Source: a bacterium
GTDB taxonomy: Bacteria > Bacillota_I > Bacilli_A > Acholeplasmatales > JAEDCM01
Assembly (NCBI GenBank): GCA_024694145.1
Contig: JAILKD010000078.1
Coordinates: forward strand, 1 to 33,371
Reading direction: 5' to 3'
DNA length: 33,371 bases
This document shows, one piece after another, positions 10,159-17,080 of this stretch. The position numbers and the translations under genes are program-made. Under the pieces are notes generated by a model. The model was not told where the DNA came from, made no database searches, and was given only the letters and a program-made list of their open reading frames with translations. How positions within the stretch are numbered: the stretch's first letter is position 1; each line of letters opens with the position of its first letter.

Positions 10159-13100
10159 TTAAATTGTATAAGTTGTATATCCATTTAATGTAGCATCACT
10201 TGGATAAAATGACCAATCTATTGGACTATTATTTACAGTAATATTTACATCTAAGCCAAGTACAGCAGCAAGTGTTGCATCTGCACTAATAGTTGATAAG
10301 TAATCCATATCTTCTATCTTAGTAGTTTTTAGTTGTAAATTAATATCTCCAAATATATTAGATCCAACAAGCTTAGCTCCATCAAGTGTTACTTTATAAG
10401 TGTTATTAGAACCACTATAAGATTTTAATACTTCTTCAATCTTTGGATCTGCCTTTTCAGCATTTCTAATTGCATTAGCAACTGTTGAACCAAAATTGAA
10501 TATCCAAATAATTTGTTCTAGTGCATCTTTGCCAAAATCAGATAAGCTCATCTTTCTAGTTTCTGTAGAACCAGCAACTCTCTTTATATAGATCATATCA
10601 TCTTGGATATAAATATAAGTCTTTGTATCTTTCTTAATTAATAATCCAAGGAAATCAATTCCAAGTTTTGAAATATCTAAATAGATATACCCTCTAAGTT
10701 TTCCGTTATGATCAAAATCAAGCATACAATCTAAATCAACACCTGCACTTAAGTTTAGCCCAAGTAGACTCATAGATACACTACCGCTTAATGCTAATTC
10801 ACCATTATTATAATTGTTTAATCCAGCTTTAACCAAATTACCAATACCATTAAAATCTAAGCATCCTGCATAGTTTGCAGCTGTAATGTCTTCATTTTCT
10901 AATAATTCAAAATGACCATTTAATATATCATTATTGATTTCAAAGTCAACTACATCTAAGCCACTAACTACTCCACCAGTTCTAAATACTTTAAATGTTT
11001 GTAAGTTGTTTTCTGTATTATTTCCTAAATCAATTGTTAAGTAATCACTATTAACTAATAATTCAATTTCATTTAGATTAATAATATCTTTAACCATTGA
11101 TAAGTCAATAGTTTTTACTTTTGAACTAATATCATCATATAACTCATCAAAATCACCATTAGTATTAACGATAGTTCCTAAATAAGTTATAGCCATCTTA
11201 ATAGTGTCATTATCAATATTAAGTGCATCAAGTGCATAATTAGCTACATCAATTAGTTCATTAAAGTTAATCTTAAATTTAATTGATTGAGTTGTTGTTG
11301 AATTAATTGGGTTACTACTATTAAAGTTTGTAATTGTTTGACTGAAGTTTAAGAATGCTACATTTTCAATAATACTTGCTTCAATGTAGTATTTCTTATC
11401 ACCTTTTACAAGAATTACTTTACCATATAATGATAAGCCTTTATCAGGTTTAAATGTTACAATGTTTGCTCTTGCATATACATCATAGCCATTAACATGA
11501 AGTTCAAATCCAATATTGTAACGCCATTTTTCTACTATATCCTTTAATTGTTTAGCATATTCAATTAATAAATCTAATTCATCTTTATTAATATTAGCAA
11601 CAGGCATTACTACTTCTTTAGCACCATCTTCAATTAATGTAGCATCAATTAAAACATCACTTGCGCTAACTTCAAATTTTAATCCCTTTTCAATATTAAT
11701 ATTAACATTAGAAAGCAGACTGCTAATAGAACTTAAATCAGCACTAATCATTAATTTATTAGTAATTGCATCAATTGTAATATTGTTTAAAATGCTATTA
11801 ATATCAAAATCAGTTTTAATACTATCTGTACTAATATTTAAGCCAAATTGAGTATTAATTTCAGCTATAATTCCATTAATATCATTAATGTTAAACATAA
11901 TAGATGTTTTACCAAATGATACATAAATATTTTTATTCTTATAGATTAATTTAATGTTATTTATTTCAAGTCCGCTATAATTAACATTTAATAATGCTTC
12001 TACTTCTAAATCTTTATTTAAATAAATGTTTCCATCTACTTTTAAATCTTTATAAGTAGCACTTATGTTAAAGCTATATCCATCATAATTTAATGCTTCT
12101 TTAATGTCATCTACTAAGAAGCTTATTAAACTAAAGTCTAGATATTCATCTTTATTAATTGTAATTATTTCTTTAGTAGTTTCAGTTAATTTAATGCTTG
12201 ATACTAAATCTTCTGCCTTAACAATTACGCTAGAATCTTTATTCACTGTTAAATTAACATTTCCTAAAATACTAGTAATGCTTGATAAGTTAGCACTAAT
12301 ATCTAATTTATTTTCATCTAGTTTAATTAATAATCCTTCAAGTAAGCTATCAATATCTATATTAGATGTCTTAACATCTCCAACTAAAGCTAAGATATCT
12401 TCGATACTTGCTTTTACTTTGATGTTAAATAAACTAATATATAATTCGTTATCAATAAAGTATGCCTTAATATCATTAAATTCATAGTCTTTATATTTAA
12501 TATTAAGTGTTGCACTAACATTTAAATCTTTATCTAAATAAATATTACCACTTACTATTACATCTTTATAAGTTAGATTAATAGCAAAATTATATGCATC
12601 ATAATTAATTGCTTTAGTTATTATATCAATTAACCATGTAACATTAGCTACATCATTATATTCAACATCAGGATTTATTAATACTTCTTTTTCAGTTTCC
12701 TTAATGCTTAATTTTAAATTGTATTTACTAATAACTACATTAAGTGCATCATCTTTATAAACACTAATCTTAAAGTCTTTTAATAATTCAACATACTTAG
12801 ATAAGTCAATTGATAAATCAAATGCCTTTTCACCAGTTATATCAATATTAAGTGACTTAATAACATCTAATATATCAGTTAGTTTAATACTTACATTTCC
12901 TAAATCAATTGTTTTATCACTGAATTTATTTATATCATTAATATTGAACTTAAAATATAAGTTATCAAAGTTTGCATAAACTGTTTCGTTATTGTAATAA
13001 ATATTAATTTCATATTTATCATTAACTTTGATAATTCCACTAGCTAAGCCATTATTATATAATACATTAGCATTTATTTTTATATCTTTAACAGTTGTTT

Positions 13101-14616
13101 CTAAATTAATTTCAAGCGGTTTATTAATTAATGATTTAACTTCATCAATTATAAAGAACATATTAGCTATATCTTCATAAGAATCATCAATAATTGGATA
13201 TGTATGCTTTTCAGATGGCTTCATAGTTAAAACTATTGATTTGCCAAATACATCAACTGTTGCATAAATATCTTTGAACTTATAAGTATCACCACTTAAT
13301 GAAGCATTTATTGCTGCATTAGCTTTAATACCCATTAAATCTAATTTAATATTTATTGTTACATCGTTACCATTTTTAATAATTTCTGCATTTTGTACTT
13401 GAGATAGTAAACTATTTAAATCTATAGCACTAGTTAATGCGCTACTACTATTATTATCTTTTAAGTACTTATTTAAATCATTTATATTTAGCTTATATTT
13501 GTTTTCACCAAGTTTAATATAAACATCATTACCTTGATAGCTTACAAATATATCACTAATATCAGCATTGACTTTTACACCACTAGCTTCAAGCTTAATG
13601 TTTAAATCTCCTTCAAGCTTTGTATCTAAGGCATCAACAGATATTTTAAAGTCATTCATATTACCTTGAATAAGTGGTCCAAAGATTTCTTGAAGATAAC
13701 CAATTACATCTTTTTCTCCTTCTTCAAGATCGGTTGCTACATCATTAATATGAGCTTTGAATGCTTCTTTATCTGGAATTTCAAATAGACCATATTCTAT
13801 TTTTTCTTCCATATTACATTTACAAGTGATATCACCTATACCTGGCATACCAATATCATATACTTCATAAGTGTCTACTTCAATTGGTGTCCAATCGCTA
13901 GATAGAGTAATTGTTAAAACTGTTTCTTTATATCCTGGATATCCTTTAGCTCCACCTATTGTTTTTGTTTCTCTTTGCTTTTTAGGAACTGCTTTTACTG
14001 GATCCAAATCTAATGTTAATGTATAGTTTCCATTTTCAGCTGCTTCTATTTTAGCATCTCTAATAGTTTCTTCATTTAAAATATATGCTTGGAACTCTTT
14101 TGGATGCCATCCATATTTTTCTAGGAAAACATCATTTGTAATTGTTTGGTATTTATCAGAATGATTCTTTCTAACAACTACTTGATTGTTTTGTAAGAAT
14201 TTTTCTTCATAAACATGAACAAGTGAACTATCAGAAATTGTTTCAATATAACAACCATCTTTTGTTACGATTCTTGTATTATGAATATCTTGTTTATAAT
14301 TAATTACCGCAACCTTTGCAGAAACTGTACCAGTAGTAACAGATTTAAATTCTTCTGTATGTCTTATTACCCAGTTACAAATAGCTGCATTATCAAGACC
14401 ACTATAATCTAGTGGATTACCTGATGTAGGACGTTCCTTTTCAAACGAATCTGTTTCTTCAGCTAAAGCATAGTGCTTTGAGCTAAATGCTTTTATAATA
14501 AACACTGCTGCAACAACAAGTATTGCAGAAAATAGTATGATTAATTTTTTATGCTTAATTCTTGGTGTCTTCTTTTGTTTTTTCTTCTTATTATCATCCA
14601 TGATATTATCAGCCAA
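10159..14616 (-). CDS. giant membrane-anchored extracytoplasmic repeat protein
   Basis: A protein of 1485 residues if read from TTG at 14616, which sits 9 nt after AAAGGAG; an ATG at 14625 abuts that SD too closely and an ATG at 14601 is also possible. Residues below count from the 14625 ATG. A lysine-rich cytoplasmic start (11-27), one membrane helix (28-46), then an entirely extracytoplasmic body without LPxTG or C-terminal anchor. Residues about 76-290 form one beta-rich domain. From about 320 to 1130 there are at least four, probably five, repeats of 172-186 residues, aligned by xINDINxxx (381, 562, 741, 913, 1121) and by the strand pair before it (325, 503, 678, 850, 1036). A degenerate copy may occupy 1290-1370. 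Alternating hydrophobic/polar strands suggest long curved beta-sheets, possibly lipid-binding. Function unknown; no enzyme motif seen. Confidence 0.85.
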   Translation of the reverse strand: MADNIMDDNKKKKQKKTPRIKHKKLIILFSAILVVAAVFIIKAFSSKHYALAEETDSFEKERPTSGNPLDYSGLDNAAICNWVIRHTEEFKSVTTGTVSAKVAVINYKQDIHNTRIVTKDGCYIETISDSSLVHVYEEKFLQNNQVVVRKNHSDKYQTITNDVFLEKYGWHPKEFQAYILNEETIRDAKIEAAENGNYTLTLDLDPVKAVPKKQRETKTIGGAKGYPGYKETVLTITLSSDWTPIEVDTYEVYDIGMPGIGDITCKCNMEEKIEYGLFEIPDKEAFKAHINDVATDLEEGEKDVIGYLQEIFGPLIQGNMNDFKISVDALDTKLEGDLNIKLEASGVKVNADISDIFVSYQGNDVYIKLGENKYKLNINDLNKYLKDNNSSSALTSAIDLNSLLSQVQNAEIIKNGNDVTINIKLDLMGIKANAAINASLSGDTYKFKDIYATVDVFGKSIVLTMKPSEKHTYPIIDDSYEDIANMFFIIDEVKSLINKPLEINLETTVKDIKINANVLYNNGLASGIIKVNDKYEINIYYNNETVYANFDNLYFKFNINDINKFSDKTIDLGNVSIKLTDILDVIKSLNIDITGEKAFDLSIDLSKYVELLKDFKISVYKDDALNVVISKYNLKLSIKETEKEVLINPDVEYNDVANVTWLIDIITKAINYDAYNFAINLTYKDVIVSGNIYLDKDLNVSATLNIKYKDYEFNDIKAYFIDNELYISLFNIKVKASIEDILALVGDVKTSNIDIDSLLEGLLIKLDENKLDISANLSSITSILGNVNLTVNKDSSVIVKAEDLVSSIKLTETTKEIITINKDEYLDFSLISFLVDDIKEALNYDGYSFNISATYKDLKVDGNIYLNKDLEVEALLNVNYSGLEINNIKLIYKNKNIYVSFGKTSIMFNINDINGIIAEINTQFGLNISTDSIKTDFDINSILNNITIDAITNKLMISADLSSISSLLSNVNINIEKGLKFEVSASDVLIDATLIEDGAKEVVMPVANINKDELDLLIEYAKQLKDIVEKWRYNIGFELHVNGYDVYARANIVTFKPDKGLSLYGKVILVKGDKKYYIEASIIENVAFLNFSQTITNFNSSNPINSTTTQSIKFKINFNELIDVANYALDALNIDNDTIKMAITYLGTIVNTNGDFDELYDDISSKVKTIDLSMVKDIINLNEIELLVNSDYLTIDLGNNTENNLQTFKVFRTGGVVSGLDVVDFEINNDILNGHFELLENEDITAANYAGCLDFNGIGNLVKAGLNNYNNGELALSGSVSMSLLGLNLSAGVDLDCMLDFDHNGKLRGYIYLDISKLGIDFLGLLIKKDTKTYIYIQDDMIYIKRVAGSTETRKMSLSDFGKDALEQIIWIFNFGSTVANAIRNAEKADPKIEEVLKSYSGSNNTYKVTLDGAKLVGSNIFGDINLQLKTTKIEDMDYLSTISADATLAAVLGLDVNITVNNSPIDWSFYPSDATLNGYTTYTI

Positions 14617-14642
14617 AAGAATCATCTCCTTTTCCTATTTTT

Positions 14643-14780: not shown

Positions 14781-14806
14781 AAAAATAAAGCTCCTTTTAA
14801 GGAGCC
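14781..14806 (-). terminator. intrinsic terminator of cdaA operon
   Basis: Minus strand: GCTCCTT / AAGGAGC stem followed by TTATTTTTT, at the stop codon of the 59-residue gene. Confidence 0.85.
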
Positions 14807-14985
14807 TATTTAAACCATAAATAGAATGATAATGTCATAACTGCTGTAAGAATTAAAGTTATTCCATATACAATATATATTCTTTTAGAAATAGATTTTG
14901 TAATCTTTTCACTATTAACATGACTTGTTACTTTTCTAAAAGGATCTGTGATAAATCCAAAAATAATTGAAAGTACTCTTTTCAT
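14806..14985 (-). CDS. 59-residue single-span membrane protein downstream of cdaA
   Basis: A short ORF encoding 59 residues starting MKRVLSIIFGFITDPFRKV, with a charged middle (SHVNSEKITKSISKR, about 21-35) and a hydrophobic C-terminal helix (IYIVYGITLILTAVMTLSFYLW, about 36-57). Translation is well supported: AGGAGGT lies at good distance from the ATG and uses the last bases of the cdaA stop codon (TAGGAGG), and a terminator follows the TAG stop directly. It is therefore the second and last gene of the cdaA transcript. Not recognised as a known family. It occupies the place where cdaR (YbbR) commonly follows cdaA, but is far too small and has no YbbR repeats. Confidence 0.8.
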   Translation of the reverse strand: MKRVLSIIFGFITDPFRKVTSHVNSEKITKSISKRIYIVYGITLILTAVMTLSFYLWFK

Positions 14986-14995
14986 ATGATACCTC

Positions 14996-15751
14996 CTACT
15001 TTAAGAACATATCAATGTATTCAACAAGCTTTTCTCTATCGCTAACTCTAAGCATGATACCTTCTGTTGTAATACTGATATGACCTGTTTCTTCACTACA
15101 TACAATAGTTAGTGCATCACTTACTTCACTTATACCAAGTGCAGCTCTATGACGTGAACCCATTGTTTTATCACCAGATTCAGATTGAGTTAATACATAA
15201 TATGCACCAGCACAACGTATTTTATCTCCTCTAATAATTACAGCACCATCATGTAGTGGTGTATTTGGTTCAAATATATTGATTAGTAATTCTTTTGAAA
15301 TATCAGAGTTCATTTGAATTGCTTTTTCAGCATATTGGTCTAATGAGTTATGCTTTTCAATTGTAATAATAGCACCAATCTTTCTTTCAGCTAAATAATA
15401 GACTGCATCTATTATAGCTCCCTTTGAGCTTTGTGAGCTAGAAATAGTCCTTATTGTACCGATTTCTTGAGGTCTGATACTATCAAGTTCTAAGCGTAAT
15501 TCATGTCCAATTAATACCATAAATAAGAAAGGAATATAGAATCTTAAATTGATTCCTTCCCCTGTAAATAACCATTTAGCCATTTTTAATCTTCCACTTG
15601 GAGCTTTTTCAACTAATATCGCAATAGCTAAAACTACTCCACAGAATAAAGAATAAATAAATATTTTCTTATTCTTTAAAACTATTGATAGGATAAATAA
15701 AAATACTACAAAGATTATATAAATATCTAAAATCATCCATAAAATATCCAT
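14996..15751 (-). CDS. cdaA: membrane diadenylate cyclase CdaA (DacA)
   Basis: A 251-residue c-di-AMP synthase: three N-terminal membrane helices (about 5-25, 30-47, 70-88), then the DAC domain. The catalytic motifs are intact: LHDGAVIIRG (DGA at 168-170) and GSRHRAALGISE (RHR at 200-202), followed by SDALTIVCSEETGHIS. It joins two ATP into c-di-AMP, the messenger controlling potassium and osmolyte transport and wall homeostasis in Bacillota. The usual partners cdaR and glmM are not adjacent; instead a 59-residue membrane protein is co-transcribed. Promoter is an extended -10 with a very short leader, divergent from hflX. Confidence 0.95.
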   Translation of the reverse strand: MDILWMILDIYIIFVVFLFILSIVLKNKKIFIYSLFCGVVLAIAILVEKAPSGRLKMAKWLFTGEGINLRFYIPFLFMVLIGHELRLELDSIRPQEIGTIRTISSSQSSKGAIIDAVYYLAERKIGAIITIEKHNSLDQYAEKAIQMNSDISKELLINIFEPNTPLHDGAVIIRGDKIRCAGAYYVLTQSESGDKTMGSRHRAALGISEVSDALTIVCSEETGHISITTEGIMLRVSDREKLVEYIDMFLK

Positions 15752-15835: not shown

Positions 15836-17080
15836 GTGGAAGAATTATATGATGCTATAATAGTTTCTATCGATTATGACGATGGATATATTAATTATTA
15901 TGAAAAAGAATTAGCTAATTTATGTGAAGCAAATAATCTTAATCATGTTTATAAGGTTAGACAAAAACTTGATAAACCAAAGGTTGGTTATTATGTTGGA
16001 GTTGGTAAACTTGATGAGATAAAAATGATTGCTACTACTTATAACATTGAATTAGTTATTTTTAATGATGAACTTTCTCCAAGCCAACTAAGGAACATTG
16101 AAAATTACCTTAATCTAGAGGTTATCGATAGATCAATGCTTATATTAAATATATTTGCTGATAGGGCAAAAACCAATGAATCAATGATTGAAGTTTCCCT
16201 TGCACAATATAAATATATGCTCCCTAGACTTGCTGGTTTATCAAATAGTTTATCACGTCAAGGCGGTGGATTTAATGCAAAAGGTCCAGGTGAAACACAA
16301 CTAGAACTAGATAGACGTAAAATTGAAAAAAGAATATATAAGCTTGAAAGTGATTTAAAGAAAATAAACATTAGTAGACAGAATAGAATTAATAAACGTA
16401 GTGATAAAACTGTTGCGCTTGTTGGTTATACAAACTCTGGTAAATCAAAACTAATGAATGCTTTAATAGAGTTATATCAAGATAACAAGAAAAAAGTATT
16501 TTCAAAGGATATGCTTTTTGCAACACTTACTACTTCTAATAGAAAAATAACATTTCCTGATAACCAGTCATTCATATTAACTGATACAGTAGGTTTTGTA
16601 TCAAAACTACCACATCATTTAATAAACTCATTTAAATCAACTTTGCAAGAAATAAATGAAGCAGATTTGATACTACATGTAATAGATTGTGCTAATCCGA
16701 ACTTCAAATTACAAATTGATGTAACTAATAAAGTATTAGAAGAACTTGGATGTAAAGATATACCTATTTTATATGTATATAATAAGTGCGATTTACTTGA
16801 TGAACAGTTCTTCCCTGAAGAAGATAATGCCATTATGATTAGTGCAAAAACTGGTTTTAATTTAAAGCTACTTGCTACAACAATTAAAACAACTATATTA
16901 AATGAAGTAACTACTCTTGAGCTATTTATTCCATATAATAGAGGAGATTTAGTTAATAAAATAAGAGAAAATGAAAACTTGTTAAAAATAGAATATAAAG
17001 ATAACTGTATAAATTTGCTTGCTACAATCAAAAACAAGAATTTGCACATTTATGAAGAATATAAAAAAGCGCTTGACTAG
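15836..17080 (+). CDS. hflX: ribosome-associated GTPase HflX
   Basis: A 414-residue GTPase with GTG start (GAGGTGG 4 nt upstream). N-terminal HflX domain with VGVGKLDEI and the linker signature GGGFNAKGPGETQLELDRRKIEKRI (the usual GIGTRGPGE has drifted to FNAKGPGE), then a coiled segment and the G domain: G1 GYTNSGKS at 197-204, G3 DTVGF, G4 NKCD, G5 SAK. In characterised bacteria HflX binds the 50S subunit and splits stalled or hibernating 70S ribosomes under stress. Single-gene transcript ending in a bidirectional terminator. Confidence 0.95.
   Translation: MEELYDAIIVSIDYDDGYINYYEKELANLCEANNLNHVYKVRQKLDKPKVGYYVGVGKLDEIKMIATTYNIELVIFNDELSPSQLRNIENYLNLEVIDRSMLILNIFADRAKTNESMIEVSLAQYKYMLPRLAGLSNSLSRQGGGFNAKGPGETQLELDRRKIEKRIYKLESDLKKINISRQNRINKRSDKTVALVGYTNSGKSKLMNALIELYQDNKKKVFSKDMLFATLTTSNRKITFPDNQSFILTDTVGFVSKLPHHLINSFKSTLQEINEADLILHVIDCANPNFKLQIDVTNKVLEELGCKDIPILYVYNKCDLLDEQFFPEEDNAIMISAKTGFNLKLLATTIKTTILNEVTTLELFIPYNRGDLVNKIRENENLLKIEYKDNCINLLATIKNKNLHIYEEYKKALD

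Follow-up and report, generated by a model that had tools for sequence, protein, structure and literature searches.

CdaR (YbbR) is the closest described counterpart of the small protein considered here. In two papers, CdaR is reported to contact the diadenylate cyclase CdaA through the membrane region of the cyclase (PMC8573169; PMC6368335). The mode by which CdaR regulates CdaA is said to be one that 'remains unclear' (PMC8573169), and no conclusive regulatory role of YbbR is given for Staphylococcus aureus (PMC6368335). The paper on CdaM, the cyclase of Mycoplasma pneumoniae, contains neither the word CdaR nor the word GlmM, and gives a laboratory strain of Escherichia coli as producing no c-di-AMP (PMC5508000). 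In the literature on CdaA and CdaR, on c-di-AMP in Acholeplasma and RF39 and on YbbR in the Mollicutes, surveyed mainly in openly accessible papers, we found no description of a small protein of the kind reported below.

The window analysed here is a stretch of 33,371 nucleotides from the genome of a bacterium that is probably a member of the Acholeplasmatales. A preliminary description of this DNA had called attention to an overlooked ORF of 59 residues behind cdaA, and the signals on which it relied were recovered: the sequence AGGAGGT lies over the cdaA stop codon and a terminator-like hairpin follows the ORF (Table 1). The start codon of the small ORF is an ATG situated 10 nt past the stop of cdaA, and the encoded protein reads MKRVLSIIFGFITDPFRKVTSHVNSEKITKSISKRIYIVYGITLILTAVMTLSFYLWFK. 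On the minus strand the junction of the two genes reads TTCTTAAAGTAGGAGGTATCATATG, in which AGGAGGT (14997-14991) and the stop codon TAG (14998-14996) have two bases in common; the same arrangement, TAG running directly into GAGG, is present in many relatives (uncounted). Beyond the stop codon of the small ORF, the stem 14807-14788 leads into the T run TATTTTTT. Folding of this hairpin gave -11 kcal/mol (z -2.9), a value equalled by 2 of 200 shuffles. A scan of the 1.3 kb region returned three terminator-like sites (shuffles averaged 0.2), and the hairpin 3' of the small ORF is the sole one of the three that closes the transcript. Amongst NCBIfam models, the best match of the cdaA product is TIGR00159 (diadenylate cyclase CdaA) at 183.1 bits, slightly below the cut-off of 188.8. 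The divergent GTPase is presumably of the HflX type, and an ORF similar to it also lies on the opposite strand in two named loci (L197 and L207).

Table 1 Coordinates of the features at the cdaA locus of the window
Feature	Position	Strand	Evidence
Single-span membrane protein of 59 aa, putatively CdaR-anchor-like ('mini-CdaR')	14806..14985	-	Profile matches, selection, charge bias
cdaA, membrane diadenylate cyclase, 251 aa	14996..15751	-	DAC domain, E 8.3e-39
Ribosome-binding site AGGAGGT	14991..14997	-	Overlaps cdaA stop codon
Intrinsic terminator-like hairpin 3' of the small ORF	14788..14807	-	Scan and folding
Divergent GTPase (context)	15836..17080	+	GTP-bdg_N, GTP-bdg_M and MMR_HSR1 matches

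Comparison of the window protein with Pfam and NCBIfam yielded one match in each, both below the curated cut-off. Matches of the 45 further family members were scattered, with a best E value of 0.0021 among the 25 of 45 Pfam families listed and a best listed E value of 0.0052 in NCBIfam. Searching with the single protein turned up candidates in 21 genomes out of 61, and in 18 cases the candidate lay in an open frame of 56-74 codons. The preliminary description had suggested looking for homologues downstream of cdaA in other low-GC genomes, and within the order such ORFs are present: cdaA was detected in 56 of the 61 genomes of the order, and an ORF of the same build lies 3' of it in 52 of the 56, no further than 15 nt from the cdaA stop codon in 51 of the 52 and at 115 nt in the remaining one (L012). 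All four cdaA-bearing genomes without the small ORF belong to genus g20. Of 12 close pairs, 11 gave a dN/dS ratio of 0.04-0.36 for the small ORF and one was saturated in dS. Such constancy behind cdaA together with these ratios goes beyond chance, and we conclude that the small ORF is a real, conserved gene.

A profile was built from 46 of the 52 members (alignment A2, from which six near-identical sequences were dropped). At E ≤ 1e-6 it matched 74 of 96 order genomes (those at least 90% complete, with the window's own included), once in each, and the matches span 20 of the 21 genera of the order. The 22 misses comprise all 17 genomes of the phytoplasma-like genus g20 together with G031, G040, G047, G357 and G359, and in the first three of these five no cdaA was detectable either. 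In a draw of 296 genomes from the class, a strong match was obtained in 34 of the 40 order genomes, and comparison of coordinates placed all 34 next to cdaA. Amongst the 256 genomes outside the order, the best match of the window-family profile had an E value of 6.7e-5 and fell in a 382-codon frame. These weak matches fell mostly in long frames and, where coordinates were compared, did not lie on YbbR proteins; one, in G100 (family f12), was situated behind cdaA, and the rest were taken as noise. A scan of named genomes with the CdaA alignment placed 17 records of the group (L197-L213) among the best 80, including Acholeplasma laidlawii, Peloplasma, Anaeroplasma, rumen Acholeplasmatales and one phytoplasma. 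The 17 include L203, labelled Erysipelotrichaceae, whose protein is identical to that of L015, and L204, labelled Bacillota bacterium. The small ORF is found 3' of cdaA in 16 of these 17 Acholeplasmatales-like records, the phytoplasma being the exception. On the evidence of these named records, the order is probably the Acholeplasmatales. The gene is assigned to no curated family and is carried by most of the sampled Acholeplasmatales, A. laidlawii included.

It had also been stated that neither CdaR nor GlmM is encoded next door, and this is so. The YbbR domain (PF07949) was found in none of the 61 order genomes, the window's genome included, using a search that picked up the domain in four of the 14 control genomes (B. 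subtilis and L. lactis included) and in 87 of the 296 class genomes. The GlmM-like gene of the window's genome lies on another contig (G000:C60:10815-12062) and scores 366.8 bits, below the cut-off of 447.55. GlmM-like genes scoring at least 339 bits, in every case below the curated cut-off, are present in 37 of the 61 order genomes. The preliminary description had allowed that cdaR and glmM might lie elsewhere in the genome; this proved correct for GlmM-like genes in those 37 genomes, and no YbbR match was found in any of the 61. A dependence of the small ORF on GlmM was ruled out: a strong GlmM-like match is missing from 24 genomes, of which 18 keep the small ORF, two have no cdaA and four are those of g20, and the small ORF therefore does not depend on GlmM.

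A transpeptidase domain was found in all 87 YbbR-positive genomes, and YbbR is absent from 46 of 133 transpeptidase-positive genomes, including all eight of family f12 and seven of the 40 order genomes. Wall loss was therefore rejected as a sufficient cause of YbbR loss, and the disappearance of the outer domains is not simply a matter of wall loss. The window's own genome, 84% complete, gave no transpeptidase match.

Because the conserved membrane protein goes with cdaA and YbbR was not found in the lineage, it is most naturally read as a partner of CdaA. In CdaR of family f14, one Asp and one Pro are invariant in a cytoplasmic stretch (ITPITK), which is followed by a linker and then by the membrane helix; the window family has an invariant Pro of its own in the N-terminal part. 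The f14 set (D14) comprised 34 anchors, loci L171 and L176 being omitted because their N-termini were not correctly read. Thirty of the 34 entered alignment A3 (L125, L164, L170 and L180 were dropped as near-duplicates), in which several rows were cut back, either to an internal methionine or at the C-terminus. Profile-profile comparison of the window family with the f14 anchors gave 84.8-91.3%, and two of the alignments (88.7% and 91.3%) pair the two prolines with each other and also the two membrane helices; one alignment, at 84.8-89.9%, is confined to linker and membrane helix (29-30 columns). When columns were shuffled with the membrane segment held in place, the score of this last alignment was reached by 0 of 200 shuffles. 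CdaR anchors of other families, compared with the same f14 profile, gave 43.7-94.9%. Among 12 membrane windows from seven families in a label-free test, with just 11 unrelated decoys, the CdaR cluster scored highest for the window family (25.4 vs at most 16.8). Furthermore, when the f14 anchor HMM was run against 705 non-CdaR membrane ORFs, the top 12 were all small ORFs of the window family or of f12.

Other comparisons were weaker or negative. Across 61 whole genomes, the f14 anchor HMM (A3) gave no match at the small ORF at E ≤ 1 and matched unrelated places down to 3.8e-5. The window family reached 44% against eight f14 rows on trimmed columns, 18% in one comparison and 36-45% in another against pooled CdaR anchors, and 11-58%, 23-27% and 2% against the anchors of f15, f17 and f22, respectively. 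In tests with the f14 HMM, the highest-scoring decoy was surpassed by seven of the 52 members and by two of the 11 held-out ones; the pooled HMM gave no significant enrichment of the 11 held-out members (AUC 0.60, p 0.13), five further ORF-bearing named records being duplicates of rows already used. Although some of these comparisons are weak or negative, the f14 match and the f12 gene order described next suggest that the small-ORF protein may be a relic of CdaR, of which the anchor would be left and the outer domains gone.

A second small ORF behind cdaA was found in f12, another family of the same class, in which all eight genomes have the order cdaA, membrane ORF, glmM. This ORF occupies the place that cdaR has elsewhere, and YbbR was found in none of the eight. 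The f12 profile was matched with pooled CdaR N-terminal anchors at a level attained by 0 of 200 shuffles, and with the pooled CdaR-anchor HMM all eight ORFs outscore every one of 634 membrane-ORF decoys; the f14 anchor HMM alone put three of the eight above the best decoy. When the f12 ORFs were compared directly with the window family, the profile match was 15-19%, with 2 of 200 shuffles equally good in one comparison. The CdaA tree does not group f12 with the Acholeplasmatales (deep branch 67/85) and the two small ORFs may therefore have separate origins. In one locus of family f11 (L149), glmM follows cdaA directly with zero gap and the cdaR slot is empty.

In the CdaA tree, three g20 genomes and the phytoplasma cluster inside the order (100/100). 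Given this nested position, the phytoplasmas probably lost the small-ORF gene. The ratio of identity in the CdaA membrane part to that in the cyclase domain is 0.28-0.33 in five phytoplasma-like rows without the ORF, compared with 0.33-0.61 in the 22 rows of that family in which the ORF is present. This divergence of the membrane part fits the loss of the small ORF and would weakly support a connection, the two ranges touching and the loss being a single event in a fast-evolving lineage. The loci without the small ORF and with a strongly diverged CdaA membrane part (L058, L062, L063 and L067 of g20, and L209 of the phytoplasma) have directly 3' of cdaA a gene that we take to be degV-like.

The N-terminal side of the membrane helix is more positive than the C-terminal side in 51 of the 52 members, predicting an N-in orientation, and on average about five residues follow the helix. 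The predicted model of the 59-aa protein has helices at residues 2-13, 15-21, 23-34 and 36-58, with a pLDDT of about 94 for helix 36-58 and mostly of 65-79 for the rest; the f14 anchor is predicted to form a long helix and a membrane helix. Accepting these predictions, the protein would consist of one N-in/C-out helix preceded by a short N-terminal part that lies in the cytoplasm and contains a conserved proline. This helix could pack against those in the membrane region of CdaA, in the way reported for full-length CdaR, and a protein cut down to the anchor could retain the CdaR-CdaA contact. The N-terminal segment would then lie on the inner face of the membrane near the cyclase domain, where it might set the assembly or activity of CdaA with no outside signal read through YbbR domains.

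The small-ORF protein is thus probably a CdaR-like anchor without the outer part, acting on CdaA within the membrane. We put at roughly 0.6 the probability that it is a dedicated membrane subunit of CdaA descended from, or standing in for, CdaR, and predict that it binds CdaA. The preliminary description had seen in it a possible new CdaA partner. What stands is a real, conserved, single-span protein tied to cdaA; novelty in kind is doubtful in view of the f14 match and the f12 arrangement. If our reading is true, a CdaR-like anchor alone, kept beside cdaA under purifying selection, separates contact in the membrane from sensing by YbbR, and whether the anchor alone controls the cyclase becomes directly testable.

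The likeness to CdaR could instead reflect convergence of short N-in anchors, the protein being a CdaA partner unrelated to CdaR whose gene arose behind cdaA in the Acholeplasmatales after CdaR was lost. The miss of the small ORF in the genome search with the f14 anchor HMM speaks for such an origin, as do the weak match to the f12 ORFs and the pooled CdaR anchors, the failure of the window protein to match any curated family above its threshold, and the separation of f12 and Acholeplasmatales in the CdaA tree. It accords less well, however, with a score against the f14-anchor profile exceeding 200 of 200 shuffles, with CdaR emerging as the best family among the decoy windows, with small ORFs making up all 12 of the top non-CdaR matches of the f14 HMM, or with a small ORF in the cdaR slot of f12, and we consider it unlikely, if worth keeping in view. 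Similarly doubtful in our estimation is the broader proposition that the Acholeplasmatales evolved their own CdaA membrane subunit independently of CdaR, which would lie amid the membrane helices of the cyclase and set its activity, and that f12 did so separately in the cdaR slot, such that CdaR gave way to single-helix subunits on more than one occasion.

Assigning a small single-span protein is difficult, and the product might serve a general role, for example in translocation or membrane maintenance, and merely share the cdaA transcript. Two members match Sec61_beta (best E 0.0021), and a PAS-GGDEF gene is often next, so that the transcript is not CdaA's alone. Yet all 34 strong matches of the class sample adjoin cdaA, SecE is not among the 25 of 45 Pfam families listed, and the one clear lineage loss, that of the phytoplasma-like genomes, coincides with a diverged CdaA membrane part; a general role of this sort appears improbable to us. 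That the ORF is spurious, or a decayed and functionless remnant of cdaR, might be suggested by its shortness and its absence from phytoplasma-like genomes, but is hardly credible for a sequence present in 20 of 21 genera with a dN/dS of 0.04-0.36 in 11 of 12 pairs.

Further genes of these loci may be recorded here. A membrane protein of about 505-540 aa is encoded 3' of the small ORF in all 16 ORF-bearing named loci (e.g. L197, L207 and L212), and that of A. laidlawii has GGDEF and PAS matches. In family f16 (L146) a 385-aa PAS-GGDEF protein is encoded directly 3' of cdaA, and other membrane proteins of about 390-430 aa are found 3' of cdaA in four f9 loci and one f19 locus. Possibly, the membrane and PAS-GGDEF proteins of cdaA loci are another component related to c-di-AMP. 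In the window, the place of the PAS-GGDEF gene of other Acholeplasmatales is taken by a 1488-aa protein without a Pfam match (10159-14625, minus strand); proteins with a similar start occur in L002 and L003, which belong to the same genus as the window.

Set against the described systems, the locus recalls CdaM of M. pneumoniae in that a membrane cyclase makes c-di-AMP in a genome-reduced mycoplasma; CdaM differs in being a cyclase with one membrane domain of its own (PMC5508000). With CdaR (YbbR) the small-ORF protein shares its position directly after cdaA, both in the window and in 52 of 56 order genomes, and a predicted N-in single membrane helix, and with CdaR of f14 in particular a cytoplasmic N-terminal part containing a conserved proline. 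It differs from CdaR in having almost no extracellular part (~5 residues) and none of the YbbR domains; as these defining domains were tested for and are absent, we do not class the protein as CdaR. Additionally, the small ORF of the window is followed by a terminator-like hairpin in place of glmM. The f12 small ORF resembles that of the window in its place after cdaA, its small size, its membrane helix and a Pro-Phe-like motif near the start, and is distinguished by its length of 75-80 aa, by glmM as the next gene and by a clearer match to the pooled CdaR anchors (93%).
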